Under the pieces are notes generated by a model. That model was not told the origin of the DNA, made no database searches, and worked only from the letters and a program-made list of their open reading frames with translations. From Allacma fusca (Eukaryota; Arthropoda; Collembola; Symphypleona; Sminthuridae): a DNA stretch of 64,000 nt. The stretch is taken from NCBI GenBank assembly GCA_947179485.1, contig OX359247.1, forward strand, positions 1,765,060 to 1,829,059. The letters run 5' to 3'. Positions within the stretch are counted from its first letter, which is position 1. Every line of letters starts with the position of its first letter. The translations under genes were made by a program, and so were the position numbers. This document shows positions 2,746 through 21,400 of the stretch, piece by piece.

Positions 2746-3462
2746 GCTTGTAACGTAACAAACCCTAGATTAATGTTTTTAATAACTTGCTATTATATTT
2801 AATTTGTAAGCATTCGAAGCAGTATTAACTCTGAGCATTTTGAAATAATTATACTTAATTATATTAATTTAATTAATTCATGGTTAGTTTTAGAGTTGAG
2901 CGTACTTAAGTAATTACATTGGACAGGGATACATAATTATTATTGTCAGTTGTCGTTGTCAACCTTTGTGCCTTGACTGGAACTCCGTGGAACTAAAGGA
3001 ACGGAGTACGGGTAGAGCGCCAATTTTGAATGTGTTGAAGTCGAAACGCCGTCCCCGCACGATGAATGCATTACATTTTGTGACGCTTCGCTATAGCTTA
3101 GTCTGCTACTGTCGTACGTGTAGTTGTATCAAACTGTATTGCAGTATAACACGAAAGGTTAGAGATACATTTGCAGGCATATTTCATAGAGATTGACAGC
3201 GGGACATACTGCAATTTAAAGCACTCGATACCTTAGCAGTATACTTTTGAATGTATAAATACGTATCTAAAAGTAATATAACCAACTGCAATGTGACGGA
3301 GGGTAGATTCATCAGGTACATTTGCAATCATGACTAACAATTATAAACAACAACCAACGTATAATATTTATTCATATCATGTTTTACTAATCATTTTTCA
3401 CGTTAATAAATGTAATGACAAACGGTGTGGTAACCAAGGTTCTGGTCTTGACCGGAAAGGTA
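2746..3462. other. Left flank of the two-gene transposon
   Basis: No host gene seen. It contains a half copy of the element's palindrome (CTTGACTGGAA, 2972-2982) and a near-complete copy at 3440-3457. Part of this stretch (from roughly 2950) probably belongs to the transposon as its 3' flank, but the terminus was not resolved. Confidence 0.45.
3440..3457. promoter_or_regulatory. Degenerate copy of element palindrome
   Basis: TTCTGGTCTTGACCGGAA, two changes from the perfect palindrome at 4573-4592. It lies just downstream of the transposase stop codon. Role as a protein-binding site is inferred. Confidence 0.4.
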
Positions 3463-5847
3463 TTATTCTTTGTAATTTTCAGTTCCACTCAAAAATTTTA
3501 CAAAATAAACATCGCCCCTACATACAATTTTTAGTACAACATCAGCTATATCATTAATTGAACAATATCCTTTGCAGTTAGAGATTACTTTGTTGTAGTG
3601 CCATAAATTAAATGCGGGAACCAGTGTATTCATTGTTCCAATTGCAAACACTTCATCGTTGCAGGCAGTACTCACAAAGTATTCTGCTTCAATTACACGT
3701 GTGTCATTAAGTATGTAGCAACAAGAATTTCGTTTGCTTTCTTTTCCACCAAATAATGACACCAATGGAGGGCCTTTAGAAGTTCTTGCTCTTATTAGGT
3801 ATGTAAGTGTGCATGAGTCTTTGGGGCAGCAAAATGTGTTTTCGTTGGGAATTCTCCTAGCATGCAAGAAGGTTCGACCCGTTTTTTTGGGCATTATGCG
3901 CGATGAACTATTCAAAAATTTACACTGCAGATTTCTAAAATACCGTTTCGCAATTTGCTGACCCACTTCGTAAGATGATGAAATATATGACCTCAATGTC
4001 ATATTAAATGTTTCAAAAGGAGCCATTGAGTAGTGTTGTAGTGGACCAATTTTTGATGCAATGTGAGCCAGATGACTTGTAAGATGGAAATTGTATTTGC
4101 AAGTGGTTTGACCGTATAGCCTGAAGGTCATTGCATAGAATATTTGTAATTCGCATCTTGATTCCCGTATGCTTGCTTCTGTTATATCTTCTGTAAGTAA
4201 CAAACTCAGGCCACGAATTAAATTCAGCCAATGTTCAAAATATTCTTGAGGTAGTATTGATTGCAGTATCGGTGGAGAATAATAAAGAAGCCACATGGAT
4301 AGTTCGTGTGCTTTGTACCATGCCAACAATTTTAATGATCTCGGCGTTCTTGATACTCTTGAGGGTGGTTTGATTGCGAGTAAGTAGTTGTCTATTTGCT
4401 GGATTTCATTAGGCGATATATAGTAATGACCGTCTGGCTTGCTCGTCAAAAGTTTTTCAGTCAAAGTTCGACATACACCAAGATATACAGTATGCATGAT
4501 ACAAGGAGGAAAACCTACAATAAATGCAATTTATTCAATTATTATTATTAATTTTATTTAACTTTAACTTTATTTCCGGTCATGACCGGAAAATCTAGTA
4601 TTATTGTGTTACCTAAAATCATGTCGAAGTATGTCAGTTCAGTAAAGGGGGATGCATAACGTACTCCAAATGTATTCACTGGAACATTTCTTGAGATCAT
4701 TTGACATATTGTTCGGTATTCTTCATTACTTCGTAGATCACTTGTAATATGTGGGGAATAGTAATGTCCACTTTCTTTATGAAGACAATAAGAACATCCA
4801 TAAAGCCCATTCCACTGCATAAGACCCTGAAATACTGGTCTGGCCACGCTGTCGCATAGACAAGCAGAAATTATTACCCTCGAAGTTCGACAAATGTCAT
4901 TTTTTGTCCATTGGAAGCCTTGCTCACCGAGATGTTTTATTTGCGTAATGACAGGTTTAAGTAACATTTCCACGTCCGGTTTCCCCCCTGATGGCCCAAG
5001 CCAAAATCCGAACATTAGAATATTTTCATTTTCCATACTACGTGTTGTCCCATCAAAAAATCCAAGCAGGGGATATAAAGTGCTTTTTGAACTTGAAGAC
5101 AAGTTAACTCCGTCAATGTTAAGGGTTAGAGACACATCTTCTGCATTGAAATTCATTGTTTGACGTAACTTGCGGAGAAACGGTTTTCTGGTCAACAAAT
5201 CATCTAGTTGAATATGTTCAAACACAGAGTATATATTTTTGGCGAGGATTTGAGCAACGTTAAAGTGCACGTAATGGTCAGTTCCAGGTTTCATCTTATT
5301 CCCACAACAGCTGCGTAAAATATTTTTATCGAAGATGTCGTAACTTTTATAGTTTTGGCACTGACGGCATTTCCAAGTCATTCCGCAGTCAAACACCGGT
5401 ACAGATGGAATCCTCTAAAACACGTATATTTTTAGGAATACTTGTGGGGTAGAACATGGTCACTTCCGACATTATTTTCAGCATAGCGTTGATTGTTACA
5501 TCTGTGAGCTTATGTTCATTTGCTAAAGTTGCTAATTTTAGGCTGACAGTATGAAGCGGTGTTAAATCGGTACCATTGTCATTTTTTCCAGTCCTGACTT
5601 GAGAAACAGAACTTGCTATTTCTTCCAGATTCCCGTCGATAGTTACTTCGCATGTATCTATAGCGCACGATTCATTTTCTTGAACGATTTGAGCTTCGTA
5701 ATTAATTTCAAGAGCTTCCATTAATCTTGTATCGAGTCTTTGCGGTTGAGGTAAACTTGGTTCAACAAGTTCTGCATAAGCCCTTTCGACAATACGTTGT
5801 TTTCTTTTCCGGTGTCTTAATGTCCGAGGAGAAAATTTAGAAGACAT
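3463..5847 (-). CDS. tnp2/CACTA-like transposase (Transposase_21 type)
   Basis: Cuts and moves the element; expected in the nucleus. The core frame (5396 down to 4613) has the family order: a cysteine-rich stretch (CRQCQNYK, then SCCGNK), VSLTLNIDGVNLSSSSKSTLYP, NILMFGFWLG, KPDVEMLLKP, a CLCDSVARP block, LMQWNGLYGCSYCLHKE and ASPFTELTYFDMIL. A 98-bp GT-AG intron (4515-4612, phase 1) then joins GFPPCIMHTVYLGVCR and the C-terminal part. The N-terminal frame starts at ATG 5847 (MSSKFSPRTLRHRKRK, basic) and ends with TGA at 5389 in a different frame from the core. A frameshift near 5395 or a missed small intron must join them; I found no intron whose phase fits. Otherwise long open frames and a clean intron suggest a fairly young copy. 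Family call from motifs only. Confidence 0.75.
4573..4592. promoter_or_regulatory. Perfect 20-bp palindrome in transposase intron
   Basis: TTTCCGGTCATGACCGGAAA equals its own reverse complement over 20 bases. It lies inside the 98-bp transposase intron. Related copies occur at 3440-3457 and 6309-6326, with half sites at 2972-2982 and 5989-5998. A dimeric DNA-binding protein, possibly the element's own BEN-like product, is the natural reader, but that is inference. Confidence 0.55.
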
Positions 5848-5859
5848 ATTATTTATCAA

Positions 5860-6163
5860 TGTTGAATGAAATAGTTAATAATGATAATAATAGTTAGTAA
5901 TGAAAGTTAATTTCCAGGTGGAATTACGAAATCAAAGTTATGTAATAGTAAAAAATACACTGTTGATAATATTCAAGTAAACGTTGGCTTCCTGTCATGC
6001 CACCTATGTGGAACTTTCACAAGTATTGGTTGCATGCTCGGCATGGTACCATACACTTTCGACCAGCTTGGTGAAATTGTTCCAGATTTTTAATTTTTTG
6101 TAAATCATTTATTGGTTGCTGTGTAGATATTATCTAGAGAGAAACACTTATAATTGTATCGCA
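5860..6163. promoter_or_regulatory. Divergent promoter region of the two-gene element
   Basis: About 300 bp between the starts of the minus-strand transposase and the plus-strand BEN-like gene. It must hold both promoters and 5' leaders. It contains TTCCAGGTGGAA (5912-5923) and a TTCCTGTCATG half site (5989-5999) resembling the element's palindrome. No clear TATA box was assigned. Confidence 0.45.
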
Positions 6164-7466
6164 ATGGACGGTGTATTTCATTTCACGGATGAGAATGGTC
6201 AATCCGCGTATTTTGGTCCATTACTGAAGGTCACCGACGTGGAGCGGATTTTAGTAGAGAAGGTATGACCAGTATATATGTAATATGTATGGAGGAAATA
6301 TGTAATACTTCCAGACATGACTGGAAACTCTTGAGTATTTTGTGGTGTTAACAAATATTTTTTAAAGTTGTATTAACAGAAATATTTGTTAATTTTCTGT
6401 ATGACAGTTGAATGTTGATGTGGTTCCAGCTATTAATTCTTTGAATGAAAACATCGAAATTCTTGCAGGAGGTACGCACAAATATCACTGTTTATTCTGT
6501 TAAAGTTTTGGAATTAAAATTCACATCTATTAACCTCATTATATAGCCCTTGAATCATTGAAGCAATCAACGAGAAATGTGGTTGAAGGAACAAATGCTG
6601 CTATTGAGGAGTTAAGTGAGAAGATGGGAGGATTATTGATTTCCCTAGATGCGAATGTTACTATTTTAAAGGACAAGTTTGAAAGGTCAGAATCTGTGGA
6701 ACGGTCCCATGATTTGGAGAACCCTCCAACATCTATGAAAAATTCACAGATTTCACAAGAGGTATTTTTTCCTCCCGCATCCCTGAAGGATTTTGTACAT
6801 TTGCATATTTGCAATAAATAAATGTTTGGATTTATTCCAGCCATATGTGAATGTTCCTGTGGGTGAAAAAGATTATCCGTATTTCATGAGCCATAATGTT
6901 TGGTCCCAAATCTCTGGTTCTGAAATTCCACGCACGATTGCTAGAGTGGTGCTTGAAAGTCTTCACTCTTTGGAAGATTTGCGTGGCTTTACTCTCACTG
7001 GAAAGGGTCTCGTGTCCAGGTAAATTACAGAATTGTTTTTATATTGTGGAACATTGTTTAAAATTCTTTTGTAGCAGGACCGAAGTGGGGGCGTTGACAT
7101 CTACGGCACGAGTTCGGAAGCAGTTACCACCAGAGTCGCTAGCAATTGCTCAAGGTATATCGCAGATTAATTGAATAGTTTTCACATTGAGAAATGTAAT
7201 TCATTCATATATTGTGTCTAGCTGTCGTTGTCAAAACTTTGCGAACCGGAATGCTGAGGAAATTCGAAGACAAATTCAATTGTGAGGGCTTCAACCCTTA
7301 TCAAGCAAAGGTAGATGAGCTCAAGAAAACAATTCGGGCTGACGTACGTCCAATTCTTCAGTCGTATCGAAGTGATTACGACGAGTTTGGTCACCCCAAA
7401 AGGTCTAACAAGCGTGTCCGGAGTTCTTTAAATGTTAATGATAACATTGAAAACGAGTCAAACTAA
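6164..7466 (+). CDS. Coiled-coil, BEN-like DNA-binding protein of the element (6 exons)
   Basis: Spliced model: 6164-6262, 6408-6471, 6547-6761, 6841-7019, 7078-7154, 7222-7466. All introns are short GT-AG, all phases agree, and the product is 292 residues ending with TAA. Residues about 34-110 are heptad-rich (ALESLKQSTRNVV, AAIEELSEKM), probably a coiled coil for dimerisation. Residues about 130-250 resemble a BEN domain: an early Trp (SHNVWSQI), IPRTIARVVLESLHSLEDL, a FTLTGKG block, then KQLPPESLAIAQAVV. The C-terminus is basic (KRSNKRVR), a possible nuclear signal. It is transcribed away from the transposase, so it may be the element's second, site-binding protein. The splice signals and open frame show no damage. 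BEN assignment is tentative; the function is inferred. Confidence 0.6.
6309..6326. promoter_or_regulatory. Near-perfect element palindrome in intron 1 of BEN-like gene
   Basis: TTCCAGACATGACTGGAA is palindromic except for one base pair and matches the pattern of 4573-4592. It lies in the first intron of the plus-strand gene, mirroring the intronic copy in the transposase gene. Confidence 0.45.
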
Positions 7467-8563
7467 TCGAAACGTCCACCTGGCATTCCAAATGGGAAGA
7501 GACTAATTTCTTAGGACAAACAACTATTTTCGATTGTAATGTAATGCTATATCTGATTTAATACATGGATGTTTTTATACTTACAATTGATTGTATGGCT
7601 TTATTTGTATTTTTTACAAATGTAAGTAAATCGTACGGTAGAATGAAAAGGAAAAAATTCATTTAAAATTATCTGTCCTTCTACAAGGCGTTACTGAATG
7701 TATAGATATTAAGCATATTTGAGTATACTGGGTGTGGGTATACTTCTAAATATATTTCATGAAAATATATTTCCATATACTCGGCAACGTTATATTTGGG
7801 CATTTGCTGCACATTGTCATGTTACATACGACGGAGCGTAAGCATAGCTTTCGGCATAGCGAGATGTATGTGAAGATGTTATATATACGACGCTCGTTCG
7901 TAACTCGATGTACGTTGTGACGGTATAACGTGAAGTGGCGAATCTTGCCGTTTGGTACAACTTTCAAGCTATTAAGAGGTATAGTTTCGTCATGTACTTC
8001 GACGTACTTGAACCACCGTGCGGGGTGTGTTTTAGATACGAAACGTCCGGATTCGGGTTGTCGGAAAGAGGCGGAATCTTTACGGAAAAAAATCTCGGAT
8101 TATGCAAGATATTAATAACAAATAATTCGTTATTATTTTAGTTAATTCACAAAATGTCATCGTTGCGTTGTTTTGAAAGTTTATCGAATTTTTGTGACGA
8201 GTATCTTAGGTCGAAACCATTCAAAAACTGAAAGTACGTAGGTCCGGTTTAAATTAAAAACTTTATGTATTTGATTGTGGAAATTGCCCGAGTATGTCAA
8301 AGTTGAGTGAAATGAAATGTGACGTGAAAATAGTACATTATTAAAGAAGAGTTCGAAGAGCACCTCAATTGTACGAAGGATTAATAAAGGATCCATATAT
8401 CAATTGATATTTGTGAGAGTATTCAGTTGAGACACGTTGAAAGGAGTACTTGAAAGGGAAACCTGCGGAAAAATAATCGACTTACACTAATATTTAAATA
8501 GTTACAATCAGGGTAAATTGTTAATTGCCAAATTCCTTTCCAAATTAAGGAGAATCAAATACA
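7467..8563. other. Right flank of transposon and EAPP upstream region
   Basis: No coding exon seen. From about 7790 to 8060 the DNA is richer in CG steps (TACGACG, ACGTTGTGACGG, CCGTGCGGGG) than its surroundings, which may mark the EAPP promoter or the end of the element. The EAPP 5' leader must lie in the last part. Confidence 0.4.
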
Positions 8564-10040
8564 ATGGATACCAACTACTTAGATTTTGGGTCTGATACTG
8601 ATTCAGATGGGGATGGAATGGATGACCTAAGGCTGGATAGGTAATAATTATTATTATGGGTCTATTCTTATTATGAATTATTACTATTGTATATAGGAAT
8701 TCATCACGCATGTAAATTGAGCACAATAAGTTGCCACACACCATAATAAAGTACATTCAACATTTCTGTGAAAAATATGCAAAACTGAGTAACATCTTAT
8801 CGAAGTAACATCTTATGTCATTTTAATAAAGCATATGCTACATGATTATCACCCGATGACGTTTGTTAGAATTTACGTACAGTTAAATTGCTACAGATAA
8901 GAGTGTTGCTCATTTTGCTCTGCTGCACTAACGGTTTATAATTATGGTTCCTATAAATTACAAATACTGACACCAGAAACTGTTCATTGATGCCACATTT
9001 TCATATGATGATGTTATGACTTAATGTTTTAAAATTATTGTAAATAATTATTTTACTATTACTTTAGTGATGAGGAAGAGGAAAGAGATGACGTCAGACT
9101 ACTGAAAATGTTGTTTACGAAGTCAACAAACCCAGTGCCGAAGAAGGTACGGGACGTGGATGATTTTGAGGCCGAGATGGAAGCTGAATTGGACAAACGA
9201 GCTTTAGAAATTGAAACCCAAGGAGGCCTTCCTCATCAAAAGTCGTTGAGCAGGTCATCATCAACATCATCTCTCAATCGAAAATCCCCGACGCCTTGCT
9301 CATCTCCGAAACCTGGCAGTAGTAAAAGGGTTAGGTTTGCACCAGACTTGAAAGCAATTACGTCAAGCCAACCCGAGTCTTCATCCGGCATTTCCAAGGA
9401 CGTCGATAAAATGGATACTGGTTCTGTGCAAAATTCATCGGGAAAATCCATTGAAGAATGTAAATTCACCACTCCGAAGGCATACGATCCCATTTATTTT
9501 GATTCCGATGAGGAGGAAGGGGAAGATGAAGAGGCGAAGAAAGCCAAAAAGAGCAAGCGGTCTGTGTTGTCTAATGATGATCTTTTTTATGATCCTGAAT
9601 CTGATTCAAGAGACCAGGCTTGGATTGACGACCATAGAAGAACCTACAGCGACCCCAACTCCAAACAGAAAAGTAATACTTCCGGAATAAATCCGTTGCC
9701 TAATTCTGATGCAGTTCTCAACTGCCCCGCCTGCTTTACATTGCTCTGTTTGGATTGTCAGCGGCATGAGTATTATTTGAGCCAGTATCGTGCTATGTTT
9801 GTTATGAACTGTGTCATTGCTAAAGATGTTACTTTAAAAGTTCCCTTGAAAGAGTCTAAATGGAAGGGTCGTCGGCGAAGGAAACATTCTGAATCAAATG
9901 ATCCAGAATCGAATCCAGGGAATTTATCGAGTGGAGATGAGTTTAATCCTGTCCGGTGCAAAGTTTGTACCACTCAAGTAGCTGTTTACGATACACAGGA
10001 GGTATATCATTTCTTCAATGTTCTCGCCTCACATGCGTAA
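8564..10040 (+). CDS. EAPP: E2F-associated phosphoprotein
   Basis: Nuclear phosphoprotein known in mammals to bind E2F and affect E2F-driven transcription. Two exons: 8564-8640 (from ATG, MDTNYLDFGSDTDSDGDG) and 9068-10040. They are joined in phase 2 across a 427-bp GT-AG intron to give 349 residues (human 285). The N-terminal half is acidic and serine-rich and includes DDFEAEMEAELD and YDPIYFDSDEEE. The conserved core follows: DDLFYDPESDSRDQAWIDDH, then PNSDAVLNCPACFTLLCLDC, a double CxxC, then QYRAMFVMNC. A further CKVC pair and the family's VYDTQEVYHFFNVLASHA end complete it. The extra length compared with human lies mostly in the serine-rich stretch before the core. AATAAA at 10090-10095 ends the transcript. 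It lies tail to tail with AHSA1. Confidence 0.93.
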
Positions 10041-18400: not shown

Positions 18401-21400
18401 ATACCAAATTTCAACAAAATCGGACCAACCGTTGCTGAGTTACGGCTATGACCACCATCGAACTTTGCGACTCCCCTCACCCTGGGGGAGCGAATTCAGA
18501 TTTTTTCCACTATTTTCCCGAGCATCCCCTAAGTACCGCCACCGCCTAATAGATTTAGTATGAACTTATGTGAAATTCAGAGATGGTGAAATGTTCTGGT
18601 TGATCCTATTTGTAAGGTCCCAATTCTAATTGAATCAGAATAATTATTCTGATGAATTGAAAGGTTGACACCGAATCTTTTGTTATTTAATTTGAATTAT
18701 GCTTAAGTTGAACTAAATAAACTGAAAAAACAAATCTAAATATACTTGTACTTACAATCATAGCCCGAAACCCTGTATTGCCAGAACAAATCGAGACCCC
18801 CCTGGGAAACGGGTCAGAAATGAGACCCATGTCCGGCCGGAGGCCGGACATGGGTCTCATTTCTGACATCGGGTTTCCCGAAAGACCCCAGCTTTCTCCG
18901 GGTGTCCGGACAAGGGTCTCATTTCAGTCCCAGGGTGTCTCGAACGTCCACAGATTTCCCAGAATGACCGGACAAGGACCTAGGGTGTCCCGAAAGAGAC
19001 GCCAGCTGACCCAGAGTGTCTGAATATGATCACAGCTCTCACAGGGTCTCCGGATAGACCCCAGCTAACTTAGAGTGTCCGGACATAACACCAGCTCTAC
19101 CAGGGTTTCCTGACAGACCCCAGCTGACCCAGGGTGTCCGGGCGGACCCACAGTATCTGAATATGGTCCCAGCTCTCACAGAGTCTCCGGAAAGACCCCA
19201 GCTAACTTAGAGTGTCCGGACATAACACCAGCTCTACCAGGGTTTCCTGACAGACCCTGGCTGACCCAGGGTGTCCGGGCGGACACACATTATCTGAATA
19301 TGGTCCCAGCTCTCACAGAGTCTCCGGAAAGACCCCAGCTAACTCAGAGTGTGACCCCAACCGGGTGTGGAAAAAGTTCCCGATCCTGCGATCCGGGATC
19401 GTTGACAAAATGGGCCAAAGTAGTTGGGCTACATTGAACGGCGGGATAGTTGGCCATTTTCAAAAACACTGGCGGGTTATTTGACCAAAATATTTTTCGC
19501 TACCCAGGTAGTTGACCAACAATTTTGGGTAGTTGGGCAAATTATTTTTTCGATACCCAGGTAGTTGGCCAACAATTTTAGGTAGTTGGTCAAAATGTTT
19601 TTTCGATACCCAGGTAGTTGGCCAACAATTTTGGGTAGTTGGGCAAACAATTTTGTCGCTACCCAGGTAGCTGGCCAAAAATTTTTGCTTACCCAGGTAG
19701 TTGACCAAAAATTATTGTCAGTTGGGCTGTTTCAGACGGGTCTGGAAAAAGTTAAAAACACCCGACTAACCAAAATAGGGACTTCCCCGACTCAAACACG
19801 AAATTTCCCGACTACCATTTTCAAAATTTTTTCGAGTGCGTCGTTTTCCCCTGCGACACCGCAAGGGAAAATTGCAAAAAAATCCGACTTCGTCGACTTT
19901 TTCCGGCGACCCCCCCTAAGGGAAAATTCCAAAAAATTTCCGACTTCATCGAGTTTTCCTAACGACCCCGCTGGGCAAATTTTCGGAAATTTTTCGACTT
20001 CGTCGATATTACCCAGCGACCCAGCCAGGCAAAATTCCGACTTTTTCGATATTTCTCGACGTCCCAGCCAGGGAAATTTCCAAAAAATTTCCGACTTCAT
20101 CGAGTTTTCCTAACGACCCCGCTGGGCAAATTTTCGGAAATTTTTCGACTTCGTCGATATTACCCAGCGACCCAGCCAGGCAAAATTCCGACTTTTTCGA
20201 TATTTCTCGACGTCCCAGCCAGGGAAATTTCCAAAAAATTTCCGACTTCATCGAGTTTTCCTAACGACCCCGCTGGGCAAATTTTCGGAAATTTTTCGAC
20301 TTCGTCGATATTACCCAGCGACCCAGCCAGGCAAAATTCCGACTTTGTCGATATTTCTCGACGTCCCAGCCAGGGAAGATTCCAAAAAATTTCCGACTTC
20401 ATTGAGTTTTCCCGACGACCTTTGCCAGCCAAATTTTCGAAAAATTTTCGACTTCGTCGATTTTACCCGGCGACCTATCCAGGGAAAATTCAGACTTGGT
20501 CGCGTTTTCCCGACGACCCCGCGGGGGAAAATTCAAACAATTTGCTTACTTCCCCGGTATCTAAAATCCCCGACTAACCGGGTTCGCAGGTTAGGAAACT
20601 TTTTCCAGACCCGGCCTCACAGTACTATATTTTGACACCCCTCATACGGCGACTCTTTTTGGTACATTGAGACCCCCCTGGGGACAGCCCCGGTTTCGGC
20701 CTATGCTTACAATTAGATATAATTCCTAAAAAGTACATCCATAATAATTATAAATCATTAGTAGTAATTAATACATGCATGAATAATTTCATTTTTATTA
20801 ATATTTAATGAATATAATTTTTTTACAACCACAAAAAACTGAGTTCTGAGTTGTCACGTTGTCAGTCACAAAAGACAATTGGGATACAAAAAGTTTTAAA
20901 AATTACGTACGTAAAAACACAATTTGAGCAACATCGTTTTGTTATAAACTACATAAAATCTGAAAGGCCAGCTTTTCCTCGTCCTGAACTAAGTTCTAGC
21001 ACAATTATAGTCAATCATTAGGTACTTTAGTACTAATTTCAAGATGCCGTGTTGAGAACGTTAAATGGGGCCATTTTAGCCTTTGATTTAGCATTTACGT
21101 CCGAACGCGTACGTAAACGCAAGGAGAAAGTGGCACCACTTGGGAAGAATCTCGGCGCGAAGTGGCATGTAAAGTTCTTTTACGGAACGTTTTTTGCGCA
21201 AGCACTCTATTACCTCATCACCGTAATTCAATGAATTCTAAATTAAAACTTCGATTACGGGATACCGGATGATTTAAAATTTATATTTATGATTAATACT
21301 GAGGTACAAATTTACTAAGGGGCGAAGCGACATCTTCTAGCGTTAGGGCGAGTACTTGCCATCGATTGCGTCTTTGGTTGTATAATTTCGAAAATTTCAC

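Follow-up and report, generated by a model that had tools for sequence, protein, structure and literature searches.

Plant En/Spm transposons encode, beside the transposase TNPD, a second, site-binding protein, TNPA, whose sites crowd the subterminal regions of the element, and the VANDAL elements are Mutator-like. To our knowledge, transposons with such a second, sequence-reading protein (TNPA, VANC) are known mainly from plants. For VANC of the Arabidopsis VANDALs, the cited part of PMC5735166 reports measured binding and motifs that lie in noncoding parts of the element, introns included, and differ between families. On the transposase side, the CMC superfamily is defined by a DDE triad with C(2)C and H(3-4)H motifs between the second D and the E, and fungal EnSpm elements make a 3-bp target duplication (both from the cited part of PMC12730594). 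Among BEN proteins, NACC1 selects ACATGT (PMC7764960, in part), the BEN domains of NACC1/2 bind CATG and BANP oligomerises via a coiled coil (PMC11472053, in part). Here we describe a transposon with two divergent genes in a 64,000-nt stretch of the genome of the collembolan Allacma fusca (GCA_947179485.1, contig OX359247.1, positions 1,765,060 to 1,829,059 of the forward strand; hereafter the window, to which plain coordinates refer).

The window copy of this element spans 4971 bp (3054..8024), with a CMC/tnp2-like transposase gene on the minus strand (3463..5847) and a six-exon gene for a BEN-like protein on the plus strand (6164..7466). We consider it likely, with a probability of roughly 0.7, that this is a two-gene CMC transposon whose BEN-like protein binds the element's own palindromes, controlling the chromatin and transcription of the element. 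Titles and abstract openings in the literature, Repbase and subscription papers aside, yielded no published description of a transposase/BEN-like pairing.

Element boundaries and copies

Searching the genome that contains the window (G000, 392.7 Mb) with positions 2960-7520, the bounds of the original prediction, recovered three further full copies, at C10 6.08 Mb, C12 28.85 Mb and C12 47.87 Mb, and one fragment on C1; the identities of the three full copies to the window copy are 99.84, 98.8 and 94.2%. One repeated element does lie at the predicted place, but its limits had to be redrawn: alignment of the copies set the exact ends, similarity beginning at 3054 and ending at 8024, with terminal inverted repeats (TIRs) at both ends, CCCGCACG on the left (3054..3061, +) and CGTGCGGG on the right (8017..8024, -). 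Both genes are present, in some state, in all four full copies including the window's. The plus-strand gene (hereafter the plus gene) thus accompanies the transposase in 3/3 of the other full copies, as expected of the predicted two-gene transposon and contrary to the possibility, raised with that prediction, that copies of the transposase never have this gene beside them. Both genes are open in the L010 copy, which has a 789-aa transposase, and the plus gene of L011 is damaged by a stop codon, the loss of an acceptor and exonic deletions. A genome search with the left end returned five places (the full copies and one fragment) and a short inverted piece; the window family therefore appears to have few copies, and that search found no short non-autonomous derivatives.

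Target duplications were compared at eight insertions from four families, with a 3-bp duplication at one, none at three (the window insertion among them) and 2 bp at the others. The bases on either side of the L010 insertion form an inverted repeat, with TATAGTT on one side and AACTATA on the other.

Transposase gene

Three minus-strand frames (3463-4530, 4554-5414 and 5389-5874) make up one transposase gene (3463..5847, -), with an intron at approximately 4515-4612. The long minus-strand frame of the original prediction is a tnp2-like transposase as claimed, but the window copy is broken by two deletions: comparison with the other copies shows a 2-nt deletion near 5392 that is common to L009, and a 174-nt deletion at approximately 5779, not found in the other three copies, that takes out intron 1 and part of exon 2. 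An intron had been considered for the frame break near 5400 and was dropped, as the other copies reveal the 2-nt deletion there. Open transposases of 718-792 aa are found at L015, L017, L018 and L019.

All five aligned families keep the motifs D273, D360, E607, C379/C382 and H583/H587, by which the element is a CMC (EnSpm/CACTA-Mirage-Chapaev) DNA transposon. The transposase did not reach the Pfam cut-off for tnp2 (PF02992); that of L010 gave sub-threshold matches to DUF4218 (E 0.0039), DUF1258 (E 0.019) and Transposase_21 (E 0.065), and a protein at L044, 32% identical over 418 aa, links the transposase to tnp2 with a Transposase_21 match that is likewise sub-threshold (E 3.5e-5). The families have the TIRs CCCGCACG, CCCACACG, CCCACACC and CCCGTGCC, none of which begins CACTA or CAC, and their CCC ends are at odds with CACTA proper. 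These elements are like other CMC transposons in their DDE, C2C and H3H motifs, their sub-cut-off tnp2 similarity and short target duplications, and unlike them in their CCC...GGG ends, the 2-bp duplication at half of the insertions, the divergent BEN-like gene and the dispersed palindromes described below.

The plus gene and its pairing with transposases

The plus gene has six exons in the window, all on the plus strand (6164..6262, 6408..6471, 6547..6761, 6841..7019, 7078..7154 and 7222..7466, with the stop codon at 7464-7466). Every intron is GT-AG and the 292-aa product has no internal stop, and the predicted six-exon gene with clean splice sites and no damage is confirmed as intact. Exon 3 encodes a helical, coiled-coil-like part (judged by eye only), the conserved domain begins in exon 4, and a conserved C-terminal block ends near YRSDYD..G. 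Homology-guided spliced models place the same five introns at L010, L015, L016 and L017, whose proteins are 38-44% identical to that of the window. A scan of viral contigs returned no relatives.

Genome-wide, matches to the plus gene at E values up to 10 (90 rows) fell into 51 places, 24 strong (E <= 0.001) and 27 weaker, and were compared with a transposase set of 116 listed tnp2 matches, with the best 114 of 990 candidates scored. Among the matches listed, 27 of the 51 places had a tnp2 match within 15 kb, where 1000 random placements gave a mean of 0.44 and a maximum of 4, and 25 of these 27 pairs were divergent with the transposase upstream (13/13 strong and 12/14 weak places). In the remaining two (E 4-9) the plus-gene match and the transposase share a strand. 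This listed pairing is an underestimate, because the plus gene is also present beside the transposases of L041 and L042, for which no partner was among the matches listed. Pairing of the transposase with the plus gene is general in this genome, and the gene keeps its divergent position in families with only 21-51% domain identity to the window. At L020 (G000:C8:72616200-72620800) and G000:C10:39267835-39270010, a weak homologue of the plus gene shares its strand with a tnp2 match, and the layout is perhaps tandem rather than divergent.

Two longer related elements, J (L039/L027/L018, G000:C10:35827193-35835951, 8759 bp) and M (L040/L031/L019, G000:C10:55814150-55824311, approximately 10.2 kb), carry a third gene for a 3'-5' exonuclease (PF01612, E 4.3e-17 and 2.1e-10 in J and M) that lies on the plus strand beyond the transposase and is convergent with it. 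The exonuclease, which we take to resemble Rrp6/EXOSC10, includes a CCHC-like stretch in J and M, recognised by eye. To the left of J, a 967-aa open frame (L039:3-2903, -) appears by eye to be GBP/atlastin-type GTPase-like.

A probable relation of the plus protein to BEN

Comparison by hhalign of the family domain with four solved BEN domains gave a score of 19.6 (probability 9%), and with BEN as the query the score was 31.6 (probability 68%) in a collinear register; a profile comparison with eight members scored 25.2 (probability 20%). The maxima of the hhalign controls were 5.3 in 60 column shuffles, 5.95 in reverse and 8.8 in 25 transposase blocks. Set beside BEN proteins (Insv, Bsg25A, NACC1, BANP and BEND6), the plus protein has a weak profile similarity that runs across the core, no Pfam BEN match and an extra conserved C-terminal block. 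The cited part of PMC11472053 gives the known palindromic targets of BEN proteins as CATG or CG-type and describes BANP as a coiled coil with a C-terminal DNA-binding part.

The genome has 39 matches to Pfam BEN (PF10523), 14 of them over the cut-off. Among the transposase matches listed, 12 of the 39 lie within 15 kb of a transposase, all 12 divergent from a transposase that lies upstream, at 2.9-4.0 kb in 11 cases and at 8.6 kb in one, whereas random placement gave an expectation of 0.48 and at most 5 in 2000 trials. The same layout is seen, among the matches listed, for 6 of the 14 over the cut-off; the other 27 of the 39 have no transposase within 15 kb among those matches. The transposase-linked examples, known here as profile matches alone, cover part of the profile. 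Because they take the same position as the plus gene, Pfam-BEN matches beside other tnp2 transposases form an independent line for the BEN relation, and the comparisons together lean towards the plus protein being related to BEN. Such matches also bear on the origin of BEN chromatin factors.

Family-specific palindromes within the elements

The window element contains a perfect 18-bp palindrome in the transposase intron (4574..4591), related sites just 3' of the transposase stop codon (3440..3457) and in intron 1 of the BEN-like gene (6309..6326), a weak palindrome in the transposase coding sequence (5586..5603, matching as in L010) and a degenerate palindrome-like site just 3' of the BEN-like gene stop (7476..7493). 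At three or fewer mismatches, TTCCGGTCATGACCGGAA has three matches in the whole window, all within the element (3440, 4574 and 6309), against a mean of 0.01 over 100 shuffles, which bears out the shared palindromes of the original prediction. Clusters of 18-bp palindromes exceeded all 100 shuffles in the window element (3 sites), L010 (4), L018 (7) and L019 (8), and no cluster above shuffles appeared in four control stretches of the window. At L018 and L019 the palindrome came top in an unbiased repeat search; in the window element it did so at 14 bp.

The palindrome is specific to the clade: the window family has TTCCGGTCATGACCGGAA, L018 and L041 share CAACACACATGTGTGTTG, and L019 has TGSACTCCGGAGTSCA. 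Element J of L018 has 11 sites at four or fewer mismatches, and L041 has seven near-perfect copies of J's palindrome, although its sole further DNA match to J is a 221-base patch of 69% identity. The centre is CATG at 11/11 sites of J, 7/7 of L041 and two of the four in the window, the other two (3440 and 5586) having centres that are not self-complementary; it is CCGG at eight L019 sites, which were selected for palindrome likeness; another L019 site, at 4559, is not palindromic. Positions recur between families: a palindrome lies in the transposase intron in the window element, J, L041 and M, 3' of the plus-gene stop at seven of eight loci checked (two degenerate) and at L041, and 3' of the transposase stop at three of six loci checked and at L041. 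Relatives of one post hoc motif follow the plus-gene stop at L015, L016, L017 and L021. We rejected the idea of a palindrome cluster in every family, as L015-L017, L020-L023 and L025 are without one. Within transposase coding sequence, a palindrome copy is found at L041:2869, J element:5854 and L042:2829, with a peptide like QHTCVL, QHACVL or QHTCEL.

In a genome-wide search (393 Mb) with the reversed motif as control, CAACACACATGTGTGTTG matched exactly at 46 sites (control 0), 45 of which fall in nine clusters, and plus-gene sequence is present in seven of the nine clusters, accounting for 33 of the 46 sites. The plus gene was seen directly in four of these (L041, L045, L046 and J) and in the clusters at C5:44.06, C12:21.7 and C12:32.6 by matches scoring like J's own (E 0.69); two clusters holding 12 sites (C10 52.95 Mb and C12 14.75 Mb) have the same spacing as L045. 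TGSACTCCGGAGTSCA has 19 sites (control 0) at five loci, all five with plus-gene sequence, directly at L019 and L047 and at three by matches scoring like L019's own (E 0.63). Palindromes were the sole criterion for choosing L045, L046 and L047. Each of the three has plus-gene sequence (only the end of the domain at L045, and with the domain start missing at L047) and matches the exonuclease; such elements can therefore be found by palindrome alone (3/3 loci). No transposase match was present in the 5.4 and 5.6 kb examined at L045 (G000:C8:21242800-21248200) and L046 (G000:C8:17720400-17726000), which look like internally deleted, apparently non-autonomous elements. L043 and L044, both tnp2 elements, had been taken as palindrome controls free of the plus gene and were withdrawn, a Pfam-BEN match lying at C1:36143262, just outside the L044 stretch.

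A proposed role for the BEN-like protein

Short palindromes are the targets of known BEN domains, and CATG, bound by NACC1/2, is the centre of the L018 and L041 palindromes and of two of the four window sites. We propose that the palindromes would be the binding sites of the plus protein, bound as an oligomer. The window element is a decayed cut-and-paste element with two divergent genes, one encoding a DDE transposase and the other a putative DNA-binding protein of BEN-like type; the helical N-terminal part of the latter would probably oligomerise, and the protein, as a dimer or higher oligomer, would bind the palindromes located within introns, 3' of stop codons and in the stretch between the two genes. 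Binding along the element might in this way control its own chromatin and transcription, most likely keeping the element active or limiting its expression.

A number of results weigh against this proposal. On the protein side, HMMER found no Pfam BEN (PF10523) match in any of seven plus-protein members, searches of Pfam and of PDB sequences with the plus protein, a seven-member alignment and a consensus yielded no BEN match either, the 39 genomic matches to PF10523 all lie more than 5 kb from any of the 51 plus-gene places, and the profile match to BEN is modest (probabilities of 9, 68 and 20% in three runs). The predicted BEN likeness, for which a profile check of the 292-residue product had been suggested, is favoured by hhalign scores above the controls and by Pfam-BEN matches at the same position, but not by PF10523 matches to the plus protein or at any of its 51 places. 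On the DNA side, clear palindrome clusters are absent at L015, L016, L017, L020-L023, L024/L023 and L025; L015-L017 each show two or three relatives of a motif that was picked after viewing these sites; the L010 palindrome was not top-ranked in the unbiased repeat search; and TTCCGGTCATGACCGGAA at two or fewer mismatches is less specific genome-wide, with 27 sites against four for the control, only some of the 27 falling in known copies. Furthermore, 24 of the 51 plus-gene places, 11 of them strong, have no transposase nearby among the matches listed, and a 2-bp target duplication is found at only four of eight insertions.

A parallel for a protein acting along its own element is VANC. Both systems combine an element-encoded protein with short, family-specific noncoding motifs (here in the window family, L018/J, L041 and L019/M), but VANC motifs form tandem arrays in one orientation and VANC binding is measured, whereas here it is proposed from sequence. 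A wider reading, which we put forward tentatively and hold to be somewhat doubtful, is a lineage-wide self-recognition in which a BEN-type factor has co-diverged with the palindrome of its family and marks the element's own DNA against host silencing, and in which the exonuclease of some families may blunt RNA-based silencing. If this reading is true, animals would have an independent counterpart of plant VANC, and transposons would be a candidate source of BEN chromatin factors. An animal genome with several families of this two-gene layout, four of them with a palindrome of their own, allows co-evolution of protein and site to be compared across related pairs.

The main competing explanation, which we regard as unlikely, casts the plus protein as an architectural factor of the TNPA kind that pairs the element ends for excision through the palindromes. 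It would follow the two-gene logic of plant En/Spm, there are several sites per element, and the helical N-terminal part (by eye) might bridge them. However, the sites lie within introns and past the stops of both genes, and the outermost lie approximately 390 bp (left) and 530 bp (right) inside the window element and 520-550 bp inside J, with no site in the terminal stretches beyond. In these two elements the sites keep clear of the ends and occur within introns, in the stretch between the genes, 3' of stop codons and occasionally in coding sequence, which makes an end-pairing role less likely than regulation of expression or silencing within the element; their spread would fit a self-regulator or an anti-silencer of the VANC type better than a TNPA-like end-binder. 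The resemblance to En/Spm thus lies in a transposase with a second, presumably site-binding protein, and the differences are that this protein is BEN-like and that its candidate sites are spread and missing from the last few hundred bp; the original suggestion of a TNPA counterpart fits only loosely.

It is improbable that the palindromes act instead at the RNA level, as hairpins within introns and 3' ends that serve processing or protection, with the plus protein unrelated to them. Introns and the bases immediately 3' of stop codons do hold many of the sites, the RNA could fold into a short stem closed by a 4-nt loop, some elements encode a 3'-5' exonuclease, and the centres of two of the four window sites (3440 and 5586) are not self-complementary. 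Yet sites are also found between genes and in coding sequence, and the would-be loop is itself self-complementary throughout J and L041 (CATG in 11/11 and 7/7) and, as CCGG, in the eight L019 sites, which were picked as palindrome-like. That the plus gene is a captured passenger host gene without a role in the life cycle of the element is more improbable still: BEN proteins are host chromatin factors (PMC11472053, in part), but the gene is retained in this divergent position in families at only 21-51% domain identity, and Pfam-BEN matches stand in that place beside other tnp2 transposases.

Neighbouring features

Approximately 1 kb from the right end of the element, the window contains the frame of an EAPP host gene (9048-10040, +; PF10238, E 4.6e-47), and a tandem-repeat array of CGACCCAGCCAGGCAAAA-type units is located at 20017-20530.

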